DNA of 64,000 nt from Botryococcus braunii. Taxonomy: Eukaryota > Chlorophyta > Trebouxiophyceae. The notes under the pieces were generated by a model. The model saw only the letters and a list, made by a program, of their open reading frames with translations, ran no database searches and was not told the DNA's origin. Shown piece after piece: positions 34,273 to 64,000 of this stretch. The stretch's first letter is position 1; every line of letters starts with the position of its first letter. The position numbers were made by a program, and so were the translations under genes. The stretch spans positions 103,634-167,633 of the forward strand of contig KV908615.1 of assembly GCA_002005505.1 (NCBI GenBank). The letters are read 5' to 3'.

Positions 34273-34797
34273 TCAGTCGTCGCTCCTCTCTGACAGTCTG
34301 GAGTCTCCGTCCTCGTCCTCACTGTCGTCCTCTGTGACCCACTCGTCCACGTGGAACTCGCCCTCGCCGTAGAGAATTAGTCTGTCAATGTAGTCGTCTC
34401 CCAGGCTGCTCAAGGCTAACTCAATGGCTGCGTAGGCTGCTTTCTCTGTCCAATATGCTTCGTGTGATGGTCCTCCCGTTTGCTGTAGGCACCTCTCAAA
34501 GATTGCGCGTGTCAGATATCCCGGCTCTCCGTTGACGAACGAAACTTCCCACAGTGTAAATTTATAGGCTGGATATATGGGAAAGCGATCTTGGAACCAC
34601 TGAGGAGGCGTGAGTGCTCCCCGTCCGTGAGCTTCGTTGACGAAGTCCTTTACCAGAAATGCTTGTTCTTCAATCGTTCGTGGTCCTTTCTCTCCTCCTG
34701 CCTTTCTTCGCTCGTTATATGTTGGAGGAGGAGGTGGAGGAGGAGGTCGTCTACCTCCGCCCGTGCTCATGCGTCCGCTTTGCCTCTTTCGCGCCAT
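34273..34797 (-). CDS. ORF0 of copia B1, protein of unknown function (174 aa)
   Basis: The ORF lies between the primer site and gag. It has a basic, Gly/Pro-rich N-terminus with a run of prolines (about residues 17-25), a central conserved region (AFLVKDFV, PQWF, YPAYK, TRAIFERCLQQTGGP), a helical stretch (EKAAYAAIELALSSL) and an acidic end (DSEDEDGDS). Copies with the same order are at 41493 and 45165. I recognise no zinc finger, transmembrane segment, signal peptide or enzyme motif. Conservation of the frame between diverged copies suggests a real protein. Confidence 0.8.
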   Translation of the reverse strand: MARKRQSGRMSTGGGRRPPPPPPPPTYNERRKAGGEKGPRTIEEQAFLVKDFVNEAHGRGALTPPQWFQDRFPIYPAYKFTLWEVSFVNGEPGYLTRAIFERCLQQTGGPSHEAYWTEKAAYAAIELALSSLGDDYIDRLILYGEGEFHVDEWVTEDDSEDEDGDSRLSERSDD

Positions 34798-41492: not shown

Positions 41493-41990
41493 ATGTCAAC
41501 TGGCTATACAGGACCTGTGCGACGGCCCCCACCTCCACCACCTATGTATAACAAAAGAAGAAAGGCTGGTGGTGAAACAGGTTCAAGGACGGCTGAAGAA
41601 CGAGCTTTCATCATAAAGGATTTTGTCAGCCGCGCATACGGACAGGGCAGTCTTACTCCTCCCCAGTGGTTCAAGCTGCGTTTCCCCACCTACCCAGCCT
41701 ACAAAGTCACCGAGTGGGAGTGCTCATTCATTAGCGGAGATCCAGGCTTTGTCACACGATCACTGTTTGAACGATATTTACAGCAGATTAGGGGCCCCGA
41801 CAAGGAGGAATTCTGGGCGGAGAGAGCAGCCTACTCAGCTGTGGAGTCTGCACTAGCATCATTGGACGAGGATTTTCTTGACTCGCTTGTGGGCAGTCAG
41901 AAGGGATACAGCCTAGAAGATTGGCTTACGGAGTCAGACAGCGAGGACGAGGACGGAGACTCCAAGATATCAGAACGCAGTCACAGCTGA
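41493..41990 (+). CDS. ORF0 of copia B2, protein of unknown function (165 aa)
   Basis: Same architecture as the B3 copy: proline run (RRPPPPPPMYNKRRKAGGE), conserved block (AFIIKDFVSRAYG, PQWF, YPAYKVTEWECSF, TRSLFERYLQQ), helical stretch (AAYSAVESALASLDEDFLDSL) and acidic end. The upstream start used in B1 and B3 reads ACG here, so the frame opens at an internal Met shared by all copies (MSTG). Gag begins 16 nt after the stop, in the next frame. Confidence 0.8.
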   Translation: MSTGYTGPVRRPPPPPPMYNKRRKAGGETGSRTAEERAFIIKDFVSRAYGQGSLTPPQWFKLRFPTYPAYKVTEWECSFISGDPGFVTRSLFERYLQQIRGPDKEEFWAERAAYSAVESALASLDEDFLDSLVGSQKGYSLEDWLTESDSEDEDGDSKISERSHS

Positions 41991-44381: not shown

Positions 44382-45107
44382 TGTTATAATAGTAAAAGAA
44401 CAATTAGTGACTTTCCCTCAGAAGAGTAATAGTGGCCAGGCTTCTCTAAAGCAATCACTGTGAACAATCTTAGAGGTTGAGTAGGGGATGGCAGAACTCT
44501 AGAGTTCTGCCATAATTGATCTGGACTGATTCCATTTCGGAGAAAGAAAGTAATGCAATCTGACGCGTTCTTGCGAGAAAGGATATAGGCAGCAGGCATG
44601 AAGGGCTCGGTACTTGTTTGGGACTGAAAGAGCACTCCGGGTGCTTATCTCTGATCAGTTGCCACAAGTGTCAACACATAGTCGGGCTCTGCTTGCTCTC
44701 CTACACACAGCAAGAGACCCGACCGAGCTTAACACCCTTCGTGCCGGGACATACAGGTGAAGTGCTGCATCTTAGTAACTTGCATGAACAATTGATTAGG
44801 AAGAGGTCTAGATAAGCGTATTAGAATATTGCTAATGCTTGGCTCATCAAACAATGGTAATGCGAATTATCTGTCGATGCGTAGAAGAGGTAGTTTGAAT
44901 TCCTTGGCGTTGAGAGAGAGCAAGAAGCAATGTAATAACTTGTTTGGGACTGAAAGAGCACTCCGGGTGCTTATCTCTGATCAGTTGCCACAAGTGTCAA
45001 CACATAGTCGGGCTCTGCTTGCTCTCCTACACACAGCAAGAGACCCGACCGAGCTTAACACCCTTCGTGCCGGGACATACAGGGAACATTACGCCCAGAA
45101 TTGTACA
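44382..45107 (+). repeat. Copia B3 5' LTR, long form with internal direct repeat
   Basis: 726 bp from TGTTATAATAG to GAATTGTACA. R1 at 44612-44756 is followed by GTGAAGTG and R2 at 44938-45082 is followed by GGAACATT. Each is 145 bp and the spacer is 181 bp. A TATA-like AGGATATAGG lies about 30 bp before R1. Each repeat starts ACTTGTTTGGG and ends CGTGCCGGGACATACAG. Confidence 0.93.
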
Positions 45108-45125
45108 GGTTATGGGCCCACCAAC
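45108..45125 (+). other. Copia B3 primer-binding site (initiator tRNA-Met anticodon arm)
   Basis: GGTTATGGGCCCACCAAC directly follows the LTR, identical to B2. Confidence 0.83.
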
Positions 45126-45164
45126 TCTTGAGCTGGGCAACTGAGAGTATGTTCCGAGCCTACG

Positions 45165-45689
45165 ATGGGACGAACGAAGCAGAGCGGAAGGATGTCGACT
45201 GGCGGTAAAAGACCATTTGTACCCCCACCTCCTTCACCACCTACATACGATAGCCTGAGGCGAGCTGGAGGAGATACAGGACCGAGAACACCAGAAGAAC
45301 GAGCATTCCTGGTGAAGGATTTTGTCAGCCGCGCGTACGGACTGGGTAAAGTCGAACAGCCTCAGTGGTTCAGACGACGTTTCTCTGCATACCCAGCCTA
45401 CAAAGTAACTGCGTGGGAGTGTTCATTCATCAACGCGGATCCAGGCTTCGTCACGCGAGCATTATTTGAACGGCATCTACAACAGATCGGAGGACCCAGC
45501 AAACCCGAATACTGGGAAGAAAGGGCAGCCTACACAGCAGTGGAGTGTGCTCTCGCCACTCTTGACGAGGACTTCCTACTTTCCCTTTTGGGCAGCAGAA
45601 AAGGATTCAGCCCAGAGGAGTGGTGCACGGACCCAGATAACGGAGACGAAGACGGGGACTCGCAGCGTTCAGAACCTAACGAAGACTGA
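45165..45689 (+). CDS. ORF0 of copia B3, protein of unknown function (174 aa)
   Basis: First ORF after the primer site, starting at the first ATG. The N-terminus is basic (GRTKQSGRMSTGGKR), then comes a proline segment (VPPPPSPPTYD) and the conserved region PEERAFLVKDFVSRAYG, PQWFRRRF, YPAYKVTAWECSF, TRALFERHLQQIGGP. A probable helix (ERAAYTAVECALATLDEDFL) and an acidic C-terminus (DNGDEDGDS) follow. Gag starts 16 nt after the stop in a different frame, so gag-pol translation needs reinitiation, leaky scanning or a spliced mRNA. No known family is recognised. A nucleic-acid or capsid-accessory role is only a guess. Confidence 0.83.
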   Translation: MGRTKQSGRMSTGGKRPFVPPPPSPPTYDSLRRAGGDTGPRTPEERAFLVKDFVSRAYGLGKVEQPQWFRRRFSAYPAYKVTAWECSFINADPGFVTRALFERHLQQIGGPSKPEYWEERAAYTAVECALATLDEDFLLSLLGSRKGFSPEEWCTDPDNGDEDGDSQRSEPNED

Positions 45690-45705: not shown

Positions 45706-48700
45706 ATGGCGAGGAAGAGATCTAAATCAAGGGAGCCATCAGAGGAGGAGCCCACAACAGAGGAGGTGTCTACATCGTCTCCCACACGACAGCCATGTAC
45801 ACCCAGTACATCAAAGGGTGAGGGAGATGTACTTCCTAAGGTCATAGCCACCCAAGTCAAGGTGCATATTAAGCTGGATCGTCATGGCACAAATTTTGTG
45901 GTATGGGACAATGCCTTCACTGCGGCTAATAGTGCTAAGGGTTCTTTTCCTGCCATTCAGTCAGCCATGCCTGGGACTATCCATAATGCTGCTGCAATGC
46001 TTCTGCTGTATGAGTCAGTTCCAGAGGAATGGTTAGGGGAAGTGTCAAGTAAGCCGTCAGCATATGATGCATATCTGTTCATTTGCAAGAAATTTGTTGG
46101 TGGTTACAACATTCAAGCCAATGCAGACTGGCTGAAGGAAATGCCAAGAGGGATGAAACGTGGAGAAACGATCTCTCAGTATGTGTCTAGAATGATAAAT
46201 CTCAAAGGCTGCTTGAAACGCAACGGCCATGACCTCTTGGATGGTCATGTGGCCACTCAGATAGTGCAGGGACTGCCAGCAGCAGCTAATCCTCCCGGGC
46301 TGTTACCAACTGCAGTAGCTTACCCCCTGGATGAACTGGCAGCTCTCATTTCCACCACTGCAGAGGCTTCTGGCTACAACGATGATGGAGAACAGCCTGC
46401 TATGGTGATGAAAGCAATGCCTGCTCAACTAGAGACTGCTCCAGCCCCTTCCACTAGCGGGGCCAATCCCTCCAGACAGCCAACAGACACAGAATCAAGG
46501 GGAGAAGTGAGGGGCACGTGCAACTACTGCCACAGGAAAGGCCATTTCTGGAGAGACTGCCGCAAACGCCAAAGGGATGCAGAGACACAACGCAATGTGG
46601 TGGCAGCTGTACAGCAACTTGCAGCCATGTGGCCCCAAGGACAGTTTCCTGGTGCACCCCAGCCACCTCCAAGCGTGCAGCATGCATTCCCAGGCACTGG
46701 AGCGTTCCCACTGCTGCACCCTCCTCCAGGCCCACCTTCTCCTCCCTCAGAAGGTATGCCATACGTGGTATCTTATAATGTGCTGGATGGCAGTAAACAT
46801 CAACAGTCCAAACAGTCGTGGCTTGTGGACAGTGGAGCGTCTGTACATCTTGTGAACAACCTTTCCCTGCTGCATGCCCCTACAGTACATGACCACCCTA
46901 TTCCACTGCTGCTTGCTACATCTGATGCCACTGGGGGTATTGTTGCTACTGGGTCAGTGTGTCTCATGTCCTCTCAGCATATTCCAGTGTGGCTGCATCG
47001 TGTCCAGTGTGTTCCCTCAGCCACCACCAATGTTCTATCAGTATCTGCTGCTCTGCGTGATGGAATCCGGTTCAGTACAGATAGACTGGGAGCATTCACT
47101 GCTGTCTCAGGACCGAGTGGTTGGCAGATGCCTGTGAAACCAGAGAATGGCCTCTATTATATTCACAACTGCCTCCCAGTAGCACCAGTGAAGGTTCCTT
47201 ATTCAGTGACAGCTGCCCTGAAGAAGAAATGCTTCAAAGGTCAAAGCCATGACTGTGCCAAACGTTTTCTGTGGCACAGCAGATTGGGACACCCAGGAGA
47301 CCCATGGATGAACCGCCTGAGCAGTGAGCAACTGGTTACTGGTCTAGACACTTTAATGTCCCCTTGTGAAAAGTGTCCTAAGTACTGTGAAGCATGCATT
47401 GAGGGGAAGCATGCACGTCCCCCATTTGGTGAAAGCTCTAGACCTGCTGAGAAACCCCTTGACAGAATCCACATTGACACTGTGGGTCCCATATCACCAG
47501 CAGCCATTACTGGGGAACGCTTTTGGGTAACTGTAACTGATGAGGCATCTGGGTGGAAGGCAGTGCTGCCAGTGAAGTCAAAAGATGTAATTGGAGCTGT
47601 TGTCAGAGACCTAATTTTGTATTGGCAAACTGAGAAGGAAACTACAGTGAAGTGCATCCGCAGTGACAGAGGCACAGAGTTCTTAAATGCCAAGTTCAAA
47701 GAATTCTGTGCATCCCAGGGCACTAAGCTGGAGACATCTGCCCCATATACCCCTCAGCAGAATGGAGTTGCTGAGAGAGCCAACAGAACCCTCAAGGAGC
47801 GCACCAGGACCCTCCTCAATTTTGCTGCAGCAAGCCCTGTTATGTGGAAGGAAGCCCTGGAGACAGCCTGCACCCTCCTAAATATGGGACCCAGCACAGG
47901 CAGGCCCCTATCTCCCTGCGAAATGTTCATGGGATATAAACCAGATGTATCCTTGCTGCGCACGTGGGGATGCCTTGCATTTGTGCACGTTCCTGATCAG
48001 CAGAGGGGGGCATTTGCACCAAAGGCTGTGGCTCGGATGTTCACTGGTTACTCTCCAGCATCAAAGGCATACCGTGTCTATATGGGAGGGGGGATATGGA
48101 GAGAGAGCAGAGATGTCCAATTTGTGGAACACATTCGAGGAGCTACTCGGGTGGGAATGGCAGTTCTCCCTGACCAGCCTCAGCAGTTCTCATACCCTGA
48201 AGACTTACCAGGGCCAATGCAAAGCAGCAACCCAGTGGTGTCATTGCCACAGCGCAGCACGCAGAATCAGACTGTCAGCAGCCCATGCTCCAGCAGTAGA
48301 CCTGACAGCTCCTTCCCAGTACCCTCTGACCAGGCTGCAACTGAGCCTGCTAGTCAGGGGAAGCTTTCCCAAGAGGAGGGCATTCTCAATGTGACTCCCG
48401 AATCAAGCACGGGAGAACAGCAGCCGGACTTGGATCAGTCCGGGGCTCTGGACGCAATTCAACGACTGGCGCGAGGAAGTGCAGACGGTGGGCAACACCA
48501 ACGGATCTTAGAGCGAGTACAGCAATCACTGCGTAACACTCATCCGGCTACTACCATTCCGCCTCCGGACGGACTGTCGCGGGCTCAACGCTACGAGCAA
48601 CGAACTGCGGCTCGAGATATCCTGCTGGCACAGGATAAGGGAGAGAGCTGTGAGCGAGAGGGGATGACTGAAGGTGACACAGAGTCACAGGGACCAGGGG

Positions 48701-50958
48701 AAGCGCAGGAATTGGGGCAGGACACCGAGAGACCTGTTTCACTTGTAAGAGATGAGAGGGGGGCTGTCTCTGATCAGACTGCAGATGGTCCAAGTGAGAT
48801 GAGCTGTACGGGTGGGACCTGTTCAGTGCCTGAGAGACATGTTAGAGATGAGAATTCAATTTGTGATGCCCAAGGACAATGTGGTGCCAGCCACGCAAGT
48901 GTGGGCCATGCATGGGAGTGTGCTGCTGGGCCTGCGCCCCAGCGCTCATGTCTAAGAGGGAGCAGACAGAGAGAGAGAGAGACATGGTCACAGCCTCAAG
49001 ACAGACCAAGAGCTCATGCAATGCAGAGTGGTTCAAATGCCTGTGAGAGTCCTGACGGGACTGCAGACCGTCAGCCATGTGAGAGTGTGTCTGAGGAGGT
49101 GAATCGGAAGCTCAGACAGTGTGAGAATTCTCCCAATTACAAGAGCTTTCCGAGAGGTACCTGTGCTTGGGAGGATGATGTTAGAGTGTCTGACAGCAAG
49201 CTTGAGAGGGCTAGCTGTGAGTCTAAGAGAGAGAAAGAGCAGAGGGGGAGGTGTGGATCTTTGCCCACAGTTCCCACATGCAGTGCGGCAACATTCAGCG
49301 AAAGAGTAGTGGGTGACAGTGAGTGTGAGAGTAAGCAAGATCAGGGGAAGCACACTGGGGTGAGATTTGGGAAGATTAGTGTGCCTTCCAGTCTAAAGGA
49401 GGCCAAGCAGTCCCCACAGTGGGAATATTGGAAGGCTGCTATGCAGGAAGAGCAAAATTCATTAGATGCTCATGAGGTGATGGAGTTTGTTCCGAGACCT
49501 CGTGGCCACAGAGTAATCCCAGTTCACTGGATTTTTTCAGTGAAAATGGATGCTCATGGTAATGTGCTGAGGTTCAAGGCTAGGCTAGTGGCTCAAGGGT
49601 GTAGGCAAATTCCAGGAGTGGATGTAATGGAGGTATTTGCTCCCACCAGCAGTTATGGGTCTAGGAGAGCTTTGCTGTCAGTGGCTGCACAAGAGGGTCT
49701 TGAAATCCACCAGGTGGATGTCAAGAATGCATTTTTAAATGGTGAATTAGAGGAGGAGGTCCATGTCACACAACCTCCTGGGTTTGAAAATGGGGATGGG
49801 AACACAGTGTGTCGCTTGAAGAAGGCACTGTATGGCCTGAAGCAAGCTCCAAGGGCATGGCATAAGACCCTCAATGAAAAGCTCCATACCATGGGGTATG
49901 AGGTGTGCAAGAGTGATGCTGGTGTGTATGTGAAATGTTCTGTGGATGGTGGAAAATCCTTTGTGCTGATTTATGTTGATGATCTATTGATAGTTTCCAA
50001 GGGCATGGGTGAGATTGAGAGAGTGAAAGGGTTGCTTAAGCAGGAGTTCACCATTCATGATCTAGGAGAGGTGAAAGATTTCCTGGGCTGCCAAGTGATG
50101 AGAGATAGAGAGAAAGGGTTGATTTCATTGAGCTGCATTCCCAAGATTGATGCACTCATTGAGAAATTTGGGCTGGATCTGGAGGCTGTGGGGCCTGACA
50201 CCCCTATGACTAAGGATTTTGTGGCCACACAGCAACCTGTGTCTAAGGACAACAGTGCCAGCATTGGAGCTGGGAGTCCCTTGCCACCAGGTCATAGAAA
50301 TTGTGAACTGGTTGGGTCACTGTTGTACATTGCTAACACCACTAGGCCTGATATTTCCCAGGCTGTGGGAGTGCTCTCCAGGTATAGGATTACTCCCAGT
50401 ACTGCTCACTGGAATGAAGCCATCAGAGTGTTGAAATATCTGAAGGCTACCCGGGATCTTGTTCTAGTACTTGGAGGGACTGACACAGAGCTGGAGGGCT
50501 TTGTTGATGCAGATTATGGTGGTGATCAGGATCATCGGTTTTCCACTATTGGTTACGTAATTCGTGTGTTCGGAGGGGCTGTAGTTTGGGGAAGCAAGAA
50601 GCAGTCTGCAGTGGCCACATCCACTGTAGAGGCTGAGTTTATGGCGGCAAGTGCAGCTGTCAAAGAGGCAAATTGGATGAAGGGATTCCTGGAAGAAATT
50701 GGTATTTCTCCTTGGATTGTGAAGATCCACTGTGATAATCAGGGATGCATCAATCATCTCAGAAATCCAGTGTTCTCTAAGCATACCAAGCACATTGCAA
50801 TCAGCTTTCACTTTGCTCGGGAAGCTATTGCATTGGGACAGGTGGATGTGAAATACGTTCCTTCTGCTAGGAATGTGGCAGATATATTTACCAAGCCTTT
50901 GACAAGGCAGGTATTTCAGGGCCATCGTGAGGCTCTAGGACTGGCCAAGTTTTTGTGA
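45706..50958 (+). CDS. Copia B3 gag-pol polyprotein
   Basis: 1,750 codons, no stop. In order: gag with the UBN2-like capsid region (about 45-200), zinc knuckle CNYCHRKGHFWRDC (272-285), protease DSG at 375, pre-integrase HHCC finger (His524, LGHPG, CEKCPKYCEACIEGK), and integrase core with Asp591, Asp654 and Glu690 (35 residues between the last two). A linker of more than 400 residues rich in Cys, Glu, Arg and Ser (about 850-1220) follows. RT starts near 1225 with YVDD at 1423-1426, then RNase H from Asp1601 (DADYGGDQDHRFSTIG) and the end AKFL. All catalytic residues are present. It should make particles, cDNA and integrase in the usual copia way. Confidence 0.96.
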   Translation: MARKRSKSREPSEEEPTTEEVSTSSPTRQPCTPSTSKGEGDVLPKVIATQVKVHIKLDRHGTNFVVWDNAFTAANSAKGSFPAIQSAMPGTIHNAAAMLLLYESVPEEWLGEVSSKPSAYDAYLFICKKFVGGYNIQANADWLKEMPRGMKRGETISQYVSRMINLKGCLKRNGHDLLDGHVATQIVQGLPAAANPPGLLPTAVAYPLDELAALISTTAEASGYNDDGEQPAMVMKAMPAQLETAPAPSTSGANPSRQPTDTESRGEVRGTCNYCHRKGHFWRDCRKRQRDAETQRNVVAAVQQLAAMWPQGQFPGAPQPPPSVQHAFPGTGAFPLLHPPPGPPSPPSEGMPYVVSYNVLDGSKHQQSKQSWLVDSGASVHLVNNLSLLHAPTVHDHPIPLLLATSDATGGIVATGSVCLMSSQHIPVWLHRVQCVPSATTNVLSVSAALRDGIRFSTDRLGAFTAVSGPSGWQMPVKPENGLYYIHNCLPVAPVKVPYSVTAALKKKCFKGQSHDCAKRFLWHSRLGHPGDPWMNRLSSEQLVTGLDTLMSPCEKCPKYCEACIEGKHARPPFGESSRPAEKPLDRIHIDTVGPISPAAITGERFWVTVTDEASGWKAVLPVKSKDVIGAVVRDLILYWQTEKETTVKCIRSDRGTEFLNAKFKEFCASQGTKLETSAPYTPQQNGVAERANRTLKERTRTLLNFAAASPVMWKEALETACTLLNMGPSTGRPLSPCEMFMGYKPDVSLLRTWGCLAFVHVPDQQRGAFAPKAVARMFTGYSPASKAYRVYMGGGIWRESRDVQFVEHIRGATRVGMAVLPDQPQQFSYPEDLPGPMQSSNPVVSLPQRSTQNQTVSSPCSSSRPDSSFPVPSDQAATEPASQGKLSQEEGILNVTPESSTGEQQPDLDQSGALDAIQRLARGSADGGQHQRILERVQQSLRNTHPATTIPPPDGLSRAQRYEQRTAARDILLAQDKGESCEREGMTEGDTESQGPGEAQELGQDTERPVSLVRDERGAVSDQTADGPSEMSCTGGTCSVPERHVRDENSICDAQGQCGASHASVGHAWECAAGPAPQRSCLRGSRQRERETWSQPQDRPRAHAMQSGSNACESPDGTADRQPCESVSEEVNRKLRQCENSPNYKSFPRGTCAWEDDVRVSDSKLERASCESKREKEQRGRCGSLPTVPTCSAATFSERVVGDSECESKQDQGKHTGVRFGKISVPSSLKEAKQSPQWEYWKAAMQEEQNSLDAHEVMEFVPRPRGHRVIPVHWIFSVKMDAHGNVLRFKARLVAQGCRQIPGVDVMEVFAPTSSYGSRRALLSVAAQEGLEIHQVDVKNAFLNGELEEEVHVTQPPGFENGDGNTVCRLKKALYGLKQAPRAWHKTLNEKLHTMGYEVCKSDAGVYVKCSVDGGKSFVLIYVDDLLIVSKGMGEIERVKGLLKQEFTIHDLGEVKDFLGCQVMRDREKGLISLSCIPKIDALIEKFGLDLEAVGPDTPMTKDFVATQQPVSKDNSASIGAGSPLPPGHRNCELVGSLLYIANTTRPDISQAVGVLSRYRITPSTAHWNEAIRVLKYLKATRDLVLVLGGTDTELEGFVDADYGGDQDHRFSTIGYVIRVFGGAVVWGSKKQSAVATSTVEAEFMAASAAVKEANWMKGFLEEIGISPWIVKIHCDNQGCINHLRNPVFSKHTKHIAISFHFAREAIALGQVDVKYVPSARNVADIFTKPLTRQVFQGHREALGLAKFL

Positions 50959-50976: not shown

Positions 50977-51702
50977 TGTTATAATAGTAAAAGAACAATT
51001 AGTGACTTTCCCTCAGAAGAGTAATAGTGGCCAGGCTTCTCTAAAGCAATCACTGTGAACAATCTTAGAGGTTGAGTAGGGGATGGCAGAACTCTAGAGT
51101 TCTGCCATAATTGATCTGGACTGATTCCATTTCGGAGAAAGAAAGTAATGCAATCTGACGCGTTCTTGCGAGAAAGGATATAGGCAGCAGGCATGAAGGG
51201 CTCGGTACTTGTTTGGGACTGAAAGAGCACTCCGGGTGCTTATCTCTGATCAGTTGCCACAAGTGTCAACACATAGTCGGGCTCTGCTTGCTCTCCTACA
51301 CACAGCAAGAGACCCGACCGAGCTTAACACCCTTCGTGCCGGGACATACAGGTGAAGTGCTGCATCTTAGTAACTTGCATGAACAATTGATTAGGAAGAG
51401 GTCTAGATAAGCGTATTAGAATATTGCTAATGCTTGGCTCATCAAACAATGGTAATGCGAATTATCTGTCGATGCGTAGAAGAGGTAGTTTGAATTCCTT
51501 GGCGTTGAGAGAGAGCAAGAAGCAATGTAATAACTTGTTTGGGACTGAAAGAGCACTCCGGGTGCTTATCTCTGATCAGTTGCCACAAGTGTCAACACAT
51601 AGTCGGGCTCTGCTTGCTCTCCTACACACAGCAAGAGACCCGACCGAGCTTAACACCCTTCGTGCCGGGACATACAGGGAACATTACGCCCAGAATTGTA
51701 CA
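50977..51702 (+). repeat. Copia B3 3' LTR
   Basis: 726 bp, reading as identical to 44382-45107, including both internal repeats, and followed by GCATC. Confidence 0.94.
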
Positions 51703-54700: not shown

Positions 54701-55849
54701 GAAACGCATCCAGTCCAGGGTGAGCCAGTTGGGCCGCAGGAGGGTGTGGACCACCAATAGGAGGAGGTCCCTGTGGCCACATTCCCTGCAGTTGTTGGAC
54801 TACTGCCACTACGTTCCGTTGGGTCTCCTCGTCCCGCTTCCTCTTTCTACAGTCCCTCCAGTAATGTCCCCTCTTGTTGCAGTAGTTGCAGATGCCCTTT
54901 ATCTCTGACTTGGCCTCAGAGACGGTTGGCCGGGCCTGCTGATGGGCTGCACTGGCAGCTAGTGGGGTACTGGTTCCACTGGGTCCTTGTCCAAGTGCCA
55001 AGACCCTGGGTTGGCGAGGAGCATATTCATCAAAACCCACAGCAGCTGCAGTGTTGCGCAGAAGACCAGCCAGCTTCTCCGAGGGATGTGCTGCAGCTGT
55101 TGTTATCATTCCAGGCTCTTTAGCTGCATCTGGCAAGCCCTGCACGATCTGGGTTGCAACGTGTGCATCCAGTAAGGCATGGTTGTTCCTGTCAAGGCAT
55201 GCCTTCAGGTTGATCATCCTGTTGACATATTGCGAAATTGTCTCATCATGTTTCATTCCCTGACTCATTTCTTGGAGCCAGTCTGCATTGGCATGTATAT
55301 TATGTCCACCAATAAACTTTCTGCAGATGAACTCATATGCATCGTAAGCAGAGGGCAAAATAGACAGAGGTCACAACCATTCCTCAGGAACTGACTCATA
55401 AATTAGCAACATTGCAGCTGCATCATGTGCTGTACCAGGCATGGCCTCCAGGATGGCAGGTAGAGACCCTTTTGACTCGTTTGCTGCCAAAAATGCATTC
55501 TTCCAAACAAGAATATTTGTCCCCTGTTCCTTCAGTTTTATGTGTACCTTGACATTTGTTGGGATAATCTTGGGCAGCTCATCTCCGCTGCCTCTTGAGG
55601 TGCTGGGGGTACAGGGTTCTCTGTTGGGCGTGGATGAGGCTGGTTCACTGCTTGACGTTGATGCTCCACTGGCTGATGATCCTTTCTTCTTGGAAGTCAT
55701 AATTTGTTCAGTTGTCTGATGGTCCCAGTACTCGCAAGGTAACTGCAAGATCTTACTCTATGTCCCTCTCCACATCAGAGTCAGACTCTTACTCAGATTC
55801 TGAACGCAACTGCTCCTTTGAATTCTCCAAATCCTTGAGTAACCCTGAT
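51703..55849 (-). pseudogene. Copia B5 ORF0 end, gag, protease, integrase and linker
   Basis: From 55849 leftwards: a short acidic remnant ending LRSESE that fits the end of ORF0, then gag from 55700 (a TGA at 55371-55373 replaces a Gly codon of B3). The next frame (53670-55358) has a zinc knuckle CNYCNKRGHYWRDC, protease LVDSGASVHLVND, integrase finger (LWHSRMGHPGE) and core (HIDTVGP, RCDRGTEF), and ends at a TGA before APYTPQQNG. 52404-53567 carries the end of integrase and the long linker and ends at a TAG. 51703-52322 finishes the linker (GTCAWEDDVR, VVGSNQSERK) and enters RT (HWIFSVKMDA), where B3 is inserted. Confidence 0.9.
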
Positions 55850-55958
55850 TGAAACAAAGGGAGACGTGTATGCAAGTTTAATAATAAGAGATACTAGGGT
55901 TTAAGGAAGGGGTGACACCGCGAGACAGTAAACGTGACGCCGATTCCTCTTACAATAC
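55850..55958 (-). repeat. Truncated gypsy-a-type LTR
   Basis: 109 bp matching the first part of the 4630-5119 LTR (TGAAACAAAGG...CCTCTTACAATAC) with one G missing. It is cut at AATAC by the copia C 3' LTR. The rest of the LTR is not found on the other side of copia C, where copia B4 begins. Confidence 0.9.
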
Positions 55959-56837
55959 TCAAGCATTTCTGCTTGCGGCGTCACCTGCAGTGATGGCACG
56001 ACGGCAGCGTCACTTCGTAGCCTGTGGGAAAAACCGTCCACGCTACAACGTTTCCAGGAACAGCACACAGCACTCTCCAACAGTAGAGGTTGGTCAAGGA
56101 TACCAACATGCTTCGGACAAGTCTTACAAATGATCTTAACTGCTCTCACTCTTGCTAAAGACCACGTAACACTACGCCTTGCCTGATAGCAGAGTTCAGC
56201 ACCAAAGAGGCCTTGCGATGTCTACTTTACGTCACTAGAATACAATAATAGTTCATCAGTAACTCAGCAAGGTCTCTTTGTGATGTTTGTACAGTGAAAC
56301 TATCTTACCGCCACAACGGTGGACGTCAACATAAGTCTCAATGAGGTCAAACATTCAGTGCGCTCTCGTCATGCACTCTCATCAATGCACACAGCAGTAA
56401 TATCTAACTGGTCTGAATGTTTGAGCACAATCATATCTGGAACGGCTTTGAGAATCCTAAACACACCTGCAGTGATGGCACGACGGCAGCGTCACTTCGT
56501 AGCCTGTGGGAAAAACCGTCCACGCTACAACGTTTCCAGGAACAGCACACAGCACTCTCCAACAGTAGAGGTTGGTCAAGGATACCAACATGCTTCGGAC
56601 AAGTACCGAGCCGTTCCTGGGCTGCCCAGGGATGGCTCGGACTGCAGGGATCCTAAAGTACTACCATACGTAATGTCTATTGAGAACGCATATCGTACAA
56701 GTCACGTGTTATGTCATTGAGGTACGAGTATGATCTATACCGTTCATAAAGGGCTATAACGGCTATAGTTTACACTGCTGTTGATGGCATGTGACAGGGG
56801 ATGTCACTAAGTACAGTATTGACCAATTCATTCAACA
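55959..56837 (-). repeat. Copia C 3' LTR
   Basis: 879 bp; element orientation TGTTGAATG...ATGCTTGA (the 3' end is not the usual CA). Internal direct repeats of 138 bp: R1 at 56467-56604, followed in element orientation by GTGTGTTT, and R2 at 55985-56122, followed by GTGACGCC. A hairpin-forming sequence at 56606-56640 directly precedes R1. Confidence 0.93.
56606..56640 (-). promoter_or_regulatory. Two-part hairpin sequence upstream of R1 in the copia C LTR
   Basis: CCGAGCC pairs with GGCTCGG at the ends and CCTGGGC with GCCCAGG inside, leaving short unpaired bulges and almost no loop. It is repeated in the 5' LTR (62963-62997) and in copia C2 (38642-38676), always directly before R1. It may be a cis-regulatory palindrome or a structured RNA start; this is inferred from position only. 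Confidence 0.5.
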
Positions 56838-56862: not shown

Positions 56863-59800
56863 CTATGTCATCTTCACAAGTCCAAACCCTCGCCTGTGCA
56901 TCTGGAAGGCAGGGCGAGCGAGAGGCTTTGTCAGCATGTCTGCCTTGTTCCTTGCAGACTCCACATAGCAGAGTGTAACCTGCCCCTTTGCAATAGCTTC
57001 ACGTGCAAAGTGGAAGCACACTGCAATGTGCTTAGTATACTTGCTATACAGTGGGTTTTTCAGGTTAGCAATGCACCCCTGATTGTCACAGTATAGCTTC
57101 ACTGACCAAGGAGGAGTTCCGATTTCCTCCATGAACCCACGCAGCCAGTTAAGCTCCTTAATAGCCAGACTGGTTGCCATGAATTCTGCCTCCACAGTGG
57201 AGGTAGCAACTGAGTGTTGCTTCTTACTACCCCAGACCACAGCACTGCCAAACACTGATAGCACATATCCCGAGGTAGAATGCCTGCTGTCAATATCGCC
57301 AGCATAATCTGCATCAACATGACCTTCTAACACAGGCCCTTTCCCTCCCAGCACTAAGACACACTCTCGAGTAGACTGAAGATACCTCAATACCCTCAAG
57401 CCCTCATTCATGTGGGCAGTGGTGGGAGCGTTCCGGTAACGGGACAGAACACCCACAGCCTGAGCTATATCAGGTCGAGTTGTATTAGCAATATACAACA
57501 GAGACCCAACAAGCTCACAATATCTATGCCCGGGAGGCAGTGGAGTCCCAGACCCAAAGCTGGTCTCACCCACTGTAACCTGCGGCATCCCAGACATCAC
57601 AAAGTCTTTACTCATGGGAGTATCGACTGTACGTGACTCAGCACTCACCCCAAACTTCTCACACAGTGCATCAATCTTAGGCACGCAGCTCAGTGATAAG
57701 CACCGATTCTCTCTATCTCTCAGGATCTGGCAGCCCAAGAAGTCCTTGACTTCACCAAGGTCATGAATCTTGAAGCTTGCCAACAGCTCCTTTTTCACCC
57801 ATTCTATCTCTTCCGCACCCATTGCCACAATCAAAAGATCATCAACATACACAAGCATGTATGACAGCTCCCCATCCTCGTGTCTCTTTATGTAAACTCC
57901 CGCATCGCTCTTACACACTTCATATCCCATACTCAGCAGCTTCTCATTCAGGGTCTTGTGCCAAGCCCTGGGAGCCTGCTTCAGGCCATAAAGGGCCTTA
58001 CGCAGTCTGCACACAATGTTGGGGTTGCCATTATCAAATCCAGGAGGCTGTGTCACATACACCTCCTCCTCTAATTCACCATTCAAAAAGGCGGTCTTTA
58101 TATCCACCTGGTGAATTTCCATGTTCTTTGCTGCAGCAGTTGCTAGCAAAGTCCTCCTGGACCCATAGCTACTGGTAGGTGCAAAGACCTCATCTACATC
58201 AACTCCAGGAATCTGTCTACAGCCCTGGGCTACAAGCCGAGCCTTAAATCTCAACACGTTCCCATGTGCATCAGTCTTCACAGAGAAGATCCAATGCACA
58301 GGGATCACCTTGTGTCCCCTGGGTCTCTCAACGTACTCCATCACCTCGTGCGCATCAAGAGAATCTTGCTCCTCTTGCATTGCCTGGCGCCAGAATTCCC
58401 ACTGAGGGGATCTTTGCGCCTCCCTGAGGTTTCCAGGGATTGGCACCTTGGACCACCTCACCCCAGGTATCTTACCCTTTACAGGATTCAGATTGTGATC
58501 ATGCACAACATGGCTATCCTCTCTAGGCTCACACGCACGTGCTTCCACTACTCTTTCGCTCGAGGTTACTGCGTTACACACCTCTCTGACTCTCTCCCAC
58601 TCTGGAGGTGTCTGCAGCTTTCTCTCCTTGGAGGATTCACATGCTGCTCCACTCAATCTGGGTCTTACATCACTCGTCATGTCCCAAACGCACTCATCAC
58701 TCAAAGGCGCAGCATAATCTGGCACTGTGCGACACCCTGCAGTGGTGTCTCTCTCATCCACGCTTGTACTCTCACAACACACCTGTGACTCCCCAGTGTG
58801 TCCCTCACAAGCACGCAGAGCCTGGCCATCTGAAGACTCCCTTTGTCCATCAAGTGTCTGATTGGAAATCTCCAAACTGACCTCTCTTGCCTCACTCTCA
58901 GCGCTTACATGATCAGACATGCCCTCCAGCCTGGCCAAGTCCTGTCCATTAGGCTGAGCTTCCGTTGCTTCCCCTGGGCAAATGGCCTCTGACATTCTCC
59001 TATTCTCTCCATCACTCACATCTCCATCATGTTCCACAGTGACCTCAGCTGCAGTCTCACGTGCTGCTACTCTCTGATCATACCGTTGCTGCCGGGTCAG
59101 CCCGTCTTGCCCTCGGACACCCATGGCCCCAACTTCCATTCGAACACATTCTTGCACATTATTCAAACGTTGCATGTGTGACTTGGTCTCCTCGCCTCCT
59201 CGCGCCAGGTTCTCCATGTGTCCGAGTACGGACCAGCTGTGGCCGGACTGCGTATGGCTCAGCTCCGAGGAAGTGGGCTCCCCGTCCACGTTGACACTTG
59301 TAGTCTCAGAATTCTCACAGGGGTTGATTGCACATGGGGTAGTTGCACAGGGGGTGGTTGCACAGGGGGAGTCAGGTCCGGACTGCTGCACGTTGACCTC
59401 TCGGTTGCAGAGAGGCTCAGGATCATCTGAGTCCCAAAAAGACAACTGACCCAAGGACTGCTGGCCCTCCTGTTGTACAAAAGGCAAGGCAAAGGGCTGC
59501 TGGACTGCATTTGGACTCACAGGAGACATGGTGCTAAGCCCCACTCTGTCTGCGCCCCTTAAGTGCTCCAGAAAGGTAACATCTCTGCTTTCTTTCCAAA
59601 TCCCGTTTCCCATATAAATTCTATATGCCTTTGACACACTGGAATACCCTGTGAAGAGACCAGGGGAGGTCTTAGACTCAAACACTCCCCTTTGGTGATC
59701 AGGTATGTGCACATGTGCTAGACAGCCAAAAGTCCTGAGCAGGGATACATCGGGCTTTACCCCATGGAAGGCTTCATAAGGCGTCTTGTCACGTCCAGTC

Positions 59801-62013
59801 ACAGGTCCCATATTGTACAGGATGCAGGCTGTCTCCACTGCTTCCTTCCAGAGTGACTGTTTGGCAGCTGCATGCAACATGAGTGTTCTGGCCTTCTCCT
59901 TGATTGTTCGGTTCATCCGTTCAGCAACGCCATTTTGCTGAGGCGTGTATGCTGCAGAGGTCTCAAATTTAATTCCCTCCTGCGTACAGAAACCCTTCAA
60001 TGTACTGTTGAGGAATTCTGTCCCCCTGTCAGTACGAATGCACTTAACAGAGCGGTTCAACTGCCTCTGCCAAAAAATCAGGAGGTCTCTGACTGCACTG
60101 CTGATTGCATCCTTGGTTTTTACTGCCAGGGCTATGACGTAGTGCGTAGCCTCATCCACAATCGTGACAAAGAAGCGCTCCCCAGTAATAGCTGTAGGGG
60201 AGATGGGGCCAACTGTGTCCAAATGAATTCTCTCAAGGGGCTCAGTGGCTGCTCTGGAACTGGTTCCAAAAGGGGGACGACTGTGCTTTCCTTGAATGCA
60301 CGCTTCACACGAAGAGTGACAGTTTGCGCAAGGGGAGAGAGATACAGGGATGCCCAGGACCAAATCTTCAGACTGCAGTCGCCTCATATTAACCTCCCCT
60401 GGGTGCCCCAGTCTACTGTGCCACAGTGCTCTCAATCTGCAATCATGAGCGACTGGTGCTCTGGCTGTGTTAACAAACACAGAGACAGGGTTTCTGACTG
60501 GACTGACCTTCTGCAAGAAATACAGGCCATTTCTCTGTGCAACTGAACAAGACCAGTTTTGAGCGCCACGCATACCAGTGTAACTTCCCACACTGTCTGT
60601 CACAAAACTAGCCCCATCACGTATAGCAGCTGTCACTGAAATCAGATTAGCTGTAGCTGAAGGAACACAATGCACATTGTGAAGCCACAGGGGTTGCTGT
60701 TCTGCACTGCTCAAGCACAGGGAACCAGTTGCAATTATCTGTCCCGTGGCATCTGACGTAGCCATATGCAAAGGAATGGGATTTCTGTGCAGGGTGGGGG
60801 AATGTAGCAGGGACAGATCATTGACTAGGTGGATGGTGGCTCCACTGTCCACCAGAAAACTTCTCGCTTCTGGCATGACGCGTGTTGGTGTTAAGACATT
60901 CAGAGAAATCATGGCAGACATACCAGAGGGTGGTGGATATCCCCCGGGGAAAAAGTTGTTGCCGTTCCCGCTGCCCTCCGGAGGTCGAGCCACTGCAGCC
61001 GACGCTTGATTTTGGAATTGCGGAAGCAGATTGGCCATTGCAGCCATGACTTGCTGCAGGTTCTGTTGCATCTTCTCGTCCGCCTCCTTCTTGAGGCAGT
61101 TCCTCTCAAAATGGCCTAGCTTGTTGCAGTAGCGGCAGCGCCTGTTGTCACGCCGGTCCCGTCCCTCCACCTTGGTCGATGAAGCTTGGCCCCCCTGGCC
61201 TCCAGCTTGGGTCTCCTGTGGGCTTGCAGTCCCTGGTGTGGTGGAGTAGGCTGGTGTGATGGCTGCCCTGGCCACAGGGGTGACTCTGGGGACCTGGTCG
61301 TTGAAGCCCAGTCCCTTGGCTGTGGTGGAGATGATCTCCCACAGTCCCTCCAGATCCTTCCCAGCAGATGAGGAGAACATCCCAGTCTCCTTCGCTTCCT
61401 CTGGCAGGCCCTTGATGATTGCCAGCTTGGCTTCTCTCTCCATGATGGAGTGCCCATTTCGCTTGAGTGCATGGAAGAGTGCCACCTTCCTGTTGTAGTA
61501 GTCCTCCAACGTTTCTGTCTCTCCCATGCTGGTGTGTAGGAGCTCCAGCCAGCGTGCTGTTACCTCCTGGTCTGCCCCTCCAGTAAAACGCTCTCGAACC
61601 CACTGGTAGGCATTGGCTGCCACTTGCATTGCAGCCAGCTTGGCACCCCACGCCTTGGGGACGCTCTCAATCAGCATTAGGAGCGCTGCTGCATTCTCCT
61701 CTGTGTCTGGCATTGGAGCTTCAATGGCTGCCTTGCACCTTTTGAGGCCACAGGCTGCCACATATGCCAGATCCCAGAGTGGAAATTCCACTCCCTCTCT
61801 GTCCAGAGTCACTGGACATTTGACATTCGTGGTGACGACGCCACCGGTTTTCGTCATTGCGATGCACATCTCTCCACTCTGCGCAGTGGAGTTTGCTGGC
61901 TGGCTGGGTGATGCACTGATGGAGGAGCCAGACCCAGCTGATCCAGACTCCGTTGCAGTGCGCTTACTTCTCGTTTTCATGATCACTTGTCTGCTTCTAG
62001 TTTTCATGATCAA
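56863..62013 (-). CDS. Copia C gag-pol polyprotein
   Basis: 1,716 codons, no stop. In order: gag (capsid about 60-230), zinc knuckle CRYCNKLGHFERNC, protease Asp389 (FLVDSGATIHLVND), HHCC finger (LWHSRLGHPG, CANCHSSCEACIQGK) and integrase core Asp599, Asp662, Glu698 (35 residues between the last two). A long Cys/Glu-rich linker (about 830-1190) contains a short repeat (CATTPCATTPC). RT has YVDD at 1389-1392, then RNase H (DADYAGDIDSRHSTSGY) and the end GFGLVKMT. The N-terminus shows a duplicated start (MKTRSRQVIMKTRSKR), so initiation at 62013 or a few codons later is uncertain. All key residues are present. Confidence 0.96.
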   Translation of the reverse strand: MIMKTRSRQVIMKTRSKRTATESGSAGSGSSISASPSQPANSTAQSGEMCIAMTKTGGVVTTNVKCPVTLDREGVEFPLWDLAYVAACGLKRCKAAIEAPMPDTEENAAALLMLIESVPKAWGAKLAAMQVAANAYQWVRERFTGGADQEVTARWLELLHTSMGETETLEDYYNRKVALFHALKRNGHSIMEREAKLAIIKGLPEEAKETGMFSSSAGKDLEGLWEIISTTAKGLGFNDQVPRVTPVARAAITPAYSTTPGTASPQETQAGGQGGQASSTKVEGRDRRDNRRCRYCNKLGHFERNCLKKEADEKMQQNLQQVMAAMANLLPQFQNQASAAVARPPEGSGNGNNFFPGGYPPPSGMSAMISLNVLTPTRVMPEARSFLVDSGATIHLVNDLSLLHSPTLHRNPIPLHMATSDATGQIIATGSLCLSSAEQQPLWLHNVHCVPSATANLISVTAAIRDGASFVTDSVGSYTGMRGAQNWSCSVAQRNGLYFLQKVSPVRNPVSVFVNTARAPVAHDCRLRALWHSRLGHPGEVNMRRLQSEDLVLGIPVSLSPCANCHSSCEACIQGKHSRPPFGTSSRAATEPLERIHLDTVGPISPTAITGERFFVTIVDEATHYVIALAVKTKDAISSAVRDLLIFWQRQLNRSVKCIRTDRGTEFLNSTLKGFCTQEGIKFETSAAYTPQQNGVAERMNRTIKEKARTLMLHAAAKQSLWKEAVETACILYNMGPVTGRDKTPYEAFHGVKPDVSLLRTFGCLAHVHIPDHQRGVFESKTSPGLFTGYSSVSKAYRIYMGNGIWKESRDVTFLEHLRGADRVGLSTMSPVSPNAVQQPFALPFVQQEGQQSLGQLSFWDSDDPEPLCNREVNVQQSGPDSPCATTPCATTPCAINPCENSETTSVNVDGEPTSSELSHTQSGHSWSVLGHMENLARGGEETKSHMQRLNNVQECVRMEVGAMGVRGQDGLTRQQRYDQRVAARETAAEVTVEHDGDVSDGENRRMSEAICPGEATEAQPNGQDLARLEGMSDHVSAESEAREVSLEISNQTLDGQRESSDGQALRACEGHTGESQVCCESTSVDERDTTAGCRTVPDYAAPLSDECVWDMTSDVRPRLSGAACESSKERKLQTPPEWERVREVCNAVTSSERVVEARACEPREDSHVVHDHNLNPVKGKIPGVRWSKVPIPGNLREAQRSPQWEFWRQAMQEEQDSLDAHEVMEYVERPRGHKVIPVHWIFSVKTDAHGNVLRFKARLVAQGCRQIPGVDVDEVFAPTSSYGSRRTLLATAAAKNMEIHQVDIKTAFLNGELEEEVYVTQPPGFDNGNPNIVCRLRKALYGLKQAPRAWHKTLNEKLLSMGYEVCKSDAGVYIKRHEDGELSYMLVYVDDLLIVAMGAEEIEWVKKELLASFKIHDLGEVKDFLGCQILRDRENRCLSLSCVPKIDALCEKFGVSAESRTVDTPMSKDFVMSGMPQVTVGETSFGSGTPLPPGHRYCELVGSLLYIANTTRPDIAQAVGVLSRYRNAPTTAHMNEGLRVLRYLQSTRECVLVLGGKGPVLEGHVDADYAGDIDSRHSTSGYVLSVFGSAVVWGSKKQHSVATSTVEAEFMATSLAIKELNWLRGFMEEIGTPPWSVKLYCDNQGCIANLKNPLYSKYTKHIAVCFHFAREAIAKGQVTLCYVESARNKADMLTKPLARPAFQMHRRGFGLVKMT

Positions 62014-62300: not shown

Positions 62301-62315
62301 CGTGGGCCCATAACC
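62301..62315 (-). other. Copia C primer-binding site (initiator tRNA-Met anticodon arm)
   Basis: The minus strand reads GGTTATGGGCCCACGC directly after the LTR. The first 14 bases match the complement of the plant initiator tRNA-Met anticodon arm. The following GCTTTCC resembles the next part of that complement after a small gap. Confidence 0.8.
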
Positions 62316-63194
62316 TCAAGCATTTCTGCTTGCGGCGTCACCTGCAGTGATGGCACGACGGCAGCGTCACTTCGTAGCCTGTGGGAAAAACCGTCCACGC
62401 TACAACGTTTCCAGGAACAGCACACAGCACTCTCCAACAGTAGAGGTTGGTCAAGGATACCAACATGCTTCGGACAAGTCTTACAAATGATCTTAACTGC
62501 TCTCACTCTTGCTAAAGACCACGTAACACTACGCCTTGCCTGATAGCAGAGTTCAGCACCAAAGAGGCCTTGCGATGTCTACTTTACGTCACTAGAATAC
62601 AATAATAGTTCATCAGTAACTCAGCAAGGTCTCTTTGTGATGTTTGTACAGTGAAACTATCTTACCGCCACAACGGTGGACGTCAACATAAGTCTCAATG
62701 AGGTCAAACATTCAGTGCGCTCTCGTCATGCACTCTCATCAATGCACACAGCAGTAATATCTAACTGGTCTGAATGTTTGAGCACAATCATATCTGGAAC
62801 GGCTTTGAGAATCCTAAACACACCTGCAGTGATGGCACGACGGCAGCGTCACTTCGTAGCCTGTGGGAAAAACCGTCCACGCTACAACGTTTCCAGGAAC
62901 AGCACACAGCACTCTCCAACAGTAGAGGTTGGTCAAGGATACCAACATGCTTCGGACAAGTACCGAGCCGTTCCTGGGCTGCCCAGGGATGGCTCGGACT
63001 GCAGGGATCCTAAAGTACTACCATACGTAATGTCTATTGAGAACGCATATCGTACAAGTCACGTGTTATGTCATTGAGGTACGAGTATGATCTATACCGT
63101 TCATAAAGGGCTATAACGGCTATAGTTTACACTGCTGTTGATGGCATGTGACAGGGGATGTCACTAAGTACAGTATTGACCAATTCATTCAACA
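62316..63194 (-). repeat. Copia C 5' LTR
   Basis: 879 bp, reads as identical to 55959-56837. R2 is at 62342-62479 and R1 at 62824-62961. The target duplication AATAC follows at 63195-63199. Confidence 0.94.
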
Positions 63195-63199
63195 AATAC

Positions 63200-63927
63200 T
63201 GTTATAATAGTGACAGAACATTTTGGTGCCTTTCCCTCAGAAGAGTAATAGTGGCCAGATCATCGTCAATTACCAGAGAGAGCAGTTAGTAGAATGAGTA
63301 ATCAGTGGCAGAACCCAGGAGTTCTGCCAGAACCAATCTAGACCAATTGCACGTTAATAAGAAAGGATTAGATAATCGGACACGGTTTGCTCGAAAGGCT
63401 ATATGCTCCTGGCTCGAAGGATTGAGGCACTTGATTGGGACATCAAAAGCACTTCGGGTGTTTGCTACTTTACTGTTGCCAGTCAAGTCTCTTCACTCAC
63501 AGACGACACTGCTTGTTTCTCTACGCACAACAAGAGTGTCGCCGGGCTTAACACCCTCGTGCCGGGACATGCAGGTAAACTGCTGTCAAGACATCATATG
63601 AACATGAACAATGGTTTAGGAAGGGTCTAGATAAGGTACAATAGAAAGGTGTAATTGCTTAGCTCATCGGACATTGGTAATGCAGACTATCAGTAACGTT
63701 GTTGATAGGATAGTTCGAGTTGCCGAGTGACGAGAGAGAGCAATAAACATTGTAACACTTGATTGGGACATCAAAAGCACTTCGGGTGTTTGCTACTTTA
63801 CTGTTGCCAGTCAAGTCTCTTCACTCACAGACGACACTGCTTGTTTCTCTACGCACAACAAGAGTGTCGCCGGGCTTAACACCCTCGTGCCGGGACATGC
63901 AGGGAACATTACGCCCAGAATTGTACA
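63200..63927 (+). repeat. Copia B4 5' LTR, long form with internal direct repeat
   Basis: 728 bp from TGTTATAATAGTG to GAATTGTACA. R1 at 63429-63574 is followed by GTAAACTG and R2 at 63757-63902 by GGAACATT; each is 146 bp, and the spacer is 182 bp. A TATA-like GGCTATATG lies about 25 bp before R1. Confidence 0.9.
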
Positions 63928-63985: not shown

Positions 63986-64000
63986 ATGGGACGAACGAAG
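63986..64000 (+). CDS. ORF0 of copia B4, first codons only
   Basis: ATGGGACGAACGAAG encodes MGRTK, identical to the start of ORF0 in copia B3, with the same preceding leader (GAGCCTACG). The rest lies outside the window. Confidence 0.65.

Follow-up and report, generated by a model that had tools for sequence, protein, structure and literature searches.

What does the extra open reading frame (ORF0) between the primer binding site and gag of a retrotransposon in the green alga Botryococcus braunii encode? The frame lies in a window of 64,000 nt of contig KV908615.1, the whole stretch of DNA analyzed here, and the features of that window are collected in Table 1. The element that bears it is a complete, young Ty1/copia LTR retrotransposon: its LTRs are identical, the target-site duplication GCATC flanks it at both ends, a primer binding site directly follows the 5′ LTR, and the domains of its gag-pol frame, read by scanning the frame in three pieces, are those of copia in order, with integrase before reverse transcriptase. 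The primer site presumably corresponds to the stem-loop around the anticodon of initiator tRNA-Met, as in the half-tRNA priming of Drosophila copia. A tRNA scan at six loci found no tRNA. ORF0 begins 57 nt past the 5′ LTR, and its stop lies 16 nt ahead of the gag ATG. Ogre/Tat-type Ty3/gypsy elements also carry an extra ORF upstream of gag, a likeness drawn by description to LTR retrotransposons of another superfamily. A preliminary description of the locus had reported near-full-length ORF copies of 165 to 174 aa with PQWF, YPAYK, and FER-LQQ motifs, a proline run, a helical region, and an acidic tail, each of which we also see. It missed the histone H3-like N terminus, the PPxY motif, and a second ORF0 family.

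Table 1. Features of the ORF0-bearing element at 45165 and of other ORF0 copies in the 64,000-nt window
Feature	Position	Strand	Remarks
5′ LTR of the 45165 element	44382..45107	+	726 bp, identical to the 3′ LTR
Primer binding site	45108..45127	+	GGTTATGGGCCCACCAACTC, also given as GGTTATGGGCCCACC; directly 3′ of the 5′ LTR
ORF0 (group B)	45165..45689	+	Intact frame, 174 aa; dN/dS in text
H3-like tail, codons 1-17 of ORF0	45165..45215	+	MGRTKQSGRMSTGGKRP; predicted disordered
ATG codon 10 of ORF0	45192..45194	+	Place of H3 lysine 9, K9M-like; Met in 78/79 group B sequences
PPTY (PPxY motif), residues 25-28	45237..45248	+	Conserved
Predicted helical domain, residues 28-143	45246..45593	+	AlphaFold2, 22-row alignment, pTM 0.70
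gag-pol	45706..50958	+	1750 aa, copia domains in order
3′ LTR of the 45165 element	50977..51702	+	726 bp, identical to the 5′ LTR
Second ORF0 copy	34273..34797	-	Intact, 174 aa; tail MARKRQSGRMSTGGGRR
Third ORF0 copy	41493..41990	+	165 aa counted from an internal Met
Family A ORF0 remnant	55755..55842	-	Last 29 codons (C terminus), one stop; matches P0012 by eye
Beginning of the fourth ORF0 copy (group B)	63986..64000	+	First 15 nt; rest beyond the window

The copy at 34273 is intact, but it lies on the minus strand, which corrects the earlier account. The 165-aa copy at 41493 is on the plus strand; it lacks the initial ATG seen in its relatives, and its tail runs on in frame for 9 codons upstream. 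The copy whose start had been noticed at 63986 does continue outside the window (C318:167619-168140), where it is stop-free across 174 aa and 91% identical. The fragment near 55800 had been assigned to the same elements, called copia B; it is indeed an ORF0 remnant, but it belongs to family A. Inside the window, the statement that ORF0 is found in copia B and is absent from copia C holds. Between the primer site and gag of copia C (56863-62013, minus strand), no ORF0-like frame is seen by eye on the coding strand, where the only listed frames measure 46, 50, and 72 aa and start with TTG or GTG. ORF0 is nevertheless not private to copia B: the genome abounds in copies of a distant second family, the source of the remnant near 55800. 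The window also shows internal direct repeats in the LTRs of copia B and copia C (63421-63906, 55958-56739, and 62315-63096; repeats of 158 nt with a spacing of 328 and blocks of 300 nt with a spacing of 482), as well as a dense tandem repeat array of 8- to 10-nt units at 939-1511.

The database proteins closest to ORF0 are JGI gene models of B. braunii. Searches of the 176-Mb B. braunii assembly each yielded 744 to 809 first-look candidates, 150 of which were scored, and the resulting counts are therefore lower bounds. In the search with P0001 (802 candidates), at least 140 of the 150 scored matches had no internal stop. The second family, family A, is 37 to 42% identical to group B and has the same kind of primer-site leader; the Ty1/copia structure of the bearer was established for the 45165 element, and family A is known here from its ORF0 and leader. 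Among the family A matches are short forms of about 80 to 90 aa that keep the H3-like tail and PPxY and are then joined by a deletion to the spacer before gag (at least 31 matches, for example, L131 and L132, at G000:C29:750000-750620 and C1:1117600-1118400). At least 28 of 150 scored matches share one identical score, and the short form is perhaps a non-autonomous element keeping the mimic. Two other ORF0 matches, both in assembly G000, lie inside very long open frames (C556:62498-62959, 2655 aa; C565:64999-65376, 1821 aa), although in the L142 piece of the latter the stop after ORF0 is still present.

Both families are under purifying selection. For group B, removal from 103 loci of those with internal stops, of five with a frameshift, deletion, or odd end (L061, L062, L078, L095, and L100), and of duplicates left 79 distinct coding sequences, with a dN/dS (Nei-Gojobori) of 0.23 (tail, 0.38; body, 0.22; C terminus, 0.19). 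For family A, 20 loci minus L127 to L132 and duplicates left 14, with a dN/dS of 0.16 (tail, 0.15; body, 0.16; C terminus, 0.28). Neither value is near 1. For the 45 of 55 listed copies in which 200 or more gag codons are open, the dN/dS between two subgroups was 0.084 for gag and 0.152 for ORF0, ratios that are rough because dS is about 2. Inside the two subgroups, the values for gag versus ORF0 were 0.278 versus 0.115 and 0.126 versus 0.083. ORF0 is thus constrained much as gag is, and the earlier proposal of a selected, element-encoded accessory protein is borne out by the dN/dS, the stop-free copies, and the conservation. The alternative that the frames are open by chance in an untranslated leader, favored by nothing but the position upstream of gag, is contradicted by dN/dS values of 0.16 to 0.23, by the gag-like constraint, and by the number of stop-free matches; we give it almost no weight.

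In 47 of 103 copies, the next ATG lies 16 nt beyond the ORF0 stop and in frame +1, and in another 43 it lies 15 nt beyond the stop and in frame 0; in family A, most spacers measure about 45 to 53 nt. Since frame 0 and frame +1 occur in such numbers, reading through the stop of ORF0 to reach gag was rejected as a general mode; reinitiation after ORF0 appears to be the likelier way for gag to be translated.

The N terminus of ORF0 resembles the tail of histone H3. The host H3 tail was read from the genome at three loci (L109 to L111); eight further histone loci (L101 to L108) contained no H3 tail, and a divergent H3-like gene at L112 (G000:C224:266100-267300) perhaps encodes a centromeric H3. 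Aligned with host H3 from residue 1, the 45165 tail is identical at 12 of 17 positions, and that of L089, MARTRQTGRMSTGRSRP, at 11 of 17; in both cases none of 100,000 composition-preserving shuffles scored as well. In group B, the Ala7 of H3 is replaced by Gly and Lys4 often by Arg. Family A places extra Lys and Arg ahead of the H3-like motif, and its core, KQTARKTT, is found in 12 of the 14 distinct coding sequences, the others reading KQTAGKTT (L115) and KQTARKTP (L126), with a pN/pS of 0.06 over the 14. Five of the 14 distinct copies contain H3 residues 2-11 with one change. A profile built from 20 group B proteins recovered 11 proteins out of 4,053 candidates, including P0012 and P0014, both with H3-like tails; that of P0014, RKRQTARKSTSSK, contains RKRQTARKST. 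Two environmental relatives read RQTARRS (P0017) and RQTARRN (P0018). P0010 is a poor match to H3, P0011 has the same motif as P0010, and L129 lacks the motif.

In searches against the PDB, the sole match of P0001 was residues 1-17 of histone H3, at a weak E value of 0.63; with tails alone as queries, all 60 listed matches (of 108 for family A and 122 for group B) were histone H3 or H3 peptides, with modest best E values of 0.085 (A) and 0.021 (B). Full-length sequence searches gave nothing significant, with no H3 match for P0012, P0014, or profile A1: P0014 had unrelated weak matches alone, and the other two had none. The lack of significant full-length matches and the three sequences without a good match (P0010, P0011, and L129) would suit a coincidence in a basic, low-complexity N terminus, in which case ORF0 might be an RNA-binding or Gag-assisting protein. 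Shuffled sequences, however, almost never reach the score of most tails (at most 183 per 100,000 for 13 of 15 tails, compared with 325 for P0017 and 20,696 for P0010), and the same H3 stretch is common to distant families, so that we consider coincidence improbable. Apart from P0010, P0011, and L129, the sequences combine resemblance beyond chance with selection, and the H3 resemblance of the tail is very probably real and selected.

The data do not support the idea that the tail was recently acquired from an exon of a host H3 gene. The best DNA match between the family A core and host H3 genes is 24 of 30 nt; synonymous recoding gives a mean of 21.4 and reaches 24 in 10% of cases. The core is thus no closer to the host genes than recoding often gives, which argues against a fresh capture.

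The families differ at the residue that corresponds to lysine 9 of H3. Apart from the Met of group B (Table 1), one of the 79 distinct sequences has Ile (L070), as do L040 and L041, which carry a stop and are outside the 79. The residue is Lys in all 14 family A sequences and in P0014, and it is Arg in four environmental relatives (P0010, P0011, P0017, and P0018). Arg precedes the Met position in 78 of the 79 group B sequences and is encoded by five codons (AGG, CGC, CGT, AGA, and CGA). A K-to-M motif, with Met at the target Lys and Arg before it, is thus found in group B and is lacking in family A and the four environmental relatives. Among 19 chosen group B representatives, pN/pS is 0.26 before Met10 and 0.96 in the next seven columns, which include S10 and T11, indicating that the constraint ends at the Met. 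The first ATG is absent from two distinct group B sequences. Translation from Met10, which would turn the codons before it into a leader, is unlikely given the pN/pS upstream and the Lys of family A at that place.

A tree built from the body alone (22 chosen group B sequences, 14 family A sequences, L129, and seven database proteins, with the stop-bearing L040 left out) unites the Met rows with a single Ile row and with P0009, which has no tail, in one clade (99/100), so that the Met most likely arose once. A topology joining the Met and Ile rows without P0009 had a p-AU of 0.07. The Arg rows sit in two places on this tree, and the long branches of P0014 and L129 make its deep branching order uncertain.

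Behind the tail, PPxY is present in 78 of 79 group B and 14 of 14 family A sequences, with a variable x; P0010 has VPSY and P0011 VPTY at this place. AlphaFold2 gave mean pLDDT values of 83 to 96 for blocks within residues 31-140 and low values for the H3-like tail and the acidic end; a first run yielded one good model of five, and in a second all five models had a pLDDT of 70 to 78. The predicted helical domain had no significant fold match, including in BFVD, which does not in itself prove a new fold, and no Pfam domain scored above the cutoff. No ORF0 relatives were found in viral contigs, GTDB genomes, or phages.

To the protein that had been described without a function, a specific and testable role can now be proposed, starting from the observed resemblance to H3, its recurrence in two distant families, the purifying selection, and the alternation of Lys, Arg, and Met. 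ORF0 would be a decoy for the host H3K9 machinery that lets the element escape silencing, the Met being a trap form in group B; we rate this proposal as evenly balanced between right and wrong. As a mimic of the H3 tail, ORF0 would consist of a disordered peptide like H3 residues 1-17, PPxY, and a small helical domain. The peptide would enter the substrate groove of a host H3K9 methyltransferase of the SUVH/G9a class or compete for H3K9 readers. The Met of group B would make a K9M-type trap, leaving less H3K9 methylation on the element, which would thus stay expressed. The location, partners, or turnover of ORF0 would depend on the helical domain and PPxY, and the latter may bring a ubiquitin ligase to the enzyme that is bound. 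Because it comes first on the element RNA, ORF0 would probably be made before Gag. We infer translation, nuclear location, binding, inhibition, and benefit to the element from the sequences. The Lys of family A and the Arg of the environmental relatives do not make a K-to-M trap, and trapping is therefore not the function that all ORF0 proteins share.

Histone tails carry import signals, and the H3-like tail could instead be a nuclear-import or chromatin-tethering signal recognized by importins or H3-tail readers, with Lys, Arg, and Met being incidental. Group B and the 14 family A sequences have a basic tail, and the extra Lys and Arg of family A precede the motif; tethering would also suit Lys, Arg, and Met alike, whereas a trap does not. 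A generic import signal, however, would need neither the residues in the order KQTARKTT, which 12 of 14 sequences share at a pN/pS of 0.06, nor Met in 78 of 79, and we regard this explanation as rather unlikely. It is less likely still that the tail serves as a substrate or as a ligand of readers, methylated in family A by the host enzyme to recruit H3K9me readers, with the Met and Arg forms escaping, so that ORF0 would steer silencing or integration and block nothing. H3K9 methyltransferases and HP1-type chromodomains read the QTAR-K-T stretch of H3, and the invariant Lys of family A within it favors such a role. The role fits group B less well, since in one study the chromodomains tested did not bind an H3K9M peptide (PMC5030085).

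For the decoy, the same source describes H3K9M as dominantly blocking H3K9 methylation and reports that SAM strengthens the binding of an H3K9M peptide to the SET domain of Clr4; it also gives a crystal structure of G9a with an H3K9M peptide, residues 3-12 of which are visible (PMC5030085). The 45165 stretch TKQSGRMSTG shares 8 of these 10 visible residues; H3K9M is a mutated histone, while ORF0 shows no evidence of a histone fold and differs at T6S and A7G. In Chlamydomonas, SET3p, which is of the SUVH kind, is described as an H3K9 mono-methyltransferase whose knockdown reactivates repeated transgenes (PMC8566409). In the host genome, a 53-aa SET fragment matched SUVH6 best in the PDB (E = 4.1e-7) and KMT2C almost as well (1.5e-6); a search for Pre-SET, which had no working control, gave no match, and no complete H3K9 enzyme was found. 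Other candidates were set aside by eye. The C126 locus, considered as SUVH for its SRA domain, shows a Cys-rich, RING-like stretch behind its SRA pieces, making a UHRF/VIM-like protein likelier, and the SET loci look ATX-like (C33 and C2) or ASH-like (C29).

Histone mimics are already known in viruses, and a K-to-M mimic is already known in a mammalian gene; what is new here is the retrotransposon bearer, with the mimic in the rare K-to-M form. A close parallel by description is EZHIP/CATACOMB, an oncohistone mimic of H3K27M that, like group B, carries a short H3-like peptide with Met in place of the target Lys and shows that a protein other than a histone can act in this way; it uses its K27M-like peptide on PRC2 and is encoded by a mammalian gene, and its inhibitory action has been tested, whereas ORF0 concerns K9 and a transposable element (PMC12713659). 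Influenza NS1 (ARSK) and SARS-CoV-2 ORF8 (ARKS) also carry short H3-like motifs in parasite proteins; these are four residues long with Lys, in contrast to matches of up to 12 of 17 at the very N terminus and a Met form in ORF0 (PMC10208167). Within the green lineage, the geminivirus protein TrAP, an inhibitor of SUVH4/KYP, counters H3K9 methylation and is reported to bind the catalytic domain; it is set beside ORF0 by description (PMC4606454). VANC of Arabidopsis VANDAL elements is, as ORF0 is proposed to be, an element-encoded counter to epigenetic silencing, but the VANC proteins are sequence-specific DNA-binding factors of DNA transposons, and the available parts of the two reports state no H3 mimicry (PMC10398659 and PMC5735166). 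An earlier report of an H3-tail mimic in a retrotransposon was not found among the listed titles and abstract openings of the open-licence literature.

More tentatively than the decoy itself, we propose that green-alga LTR retrotransposons may encode an H3-tail decoy of which one lineage would have become a K9M form poisoning the H3K9 methyltransferase, with sister lineages carrying Lys or Arg, as in an arms race at one residue. If true, this would be a new route by which a transposable element counters silencing. A natural K9M form selected in many copies would then be a natural probe for H3K9 methyltransferases, and the Lys, Arg, and Met forms of ORF0 would provide a natural test series.
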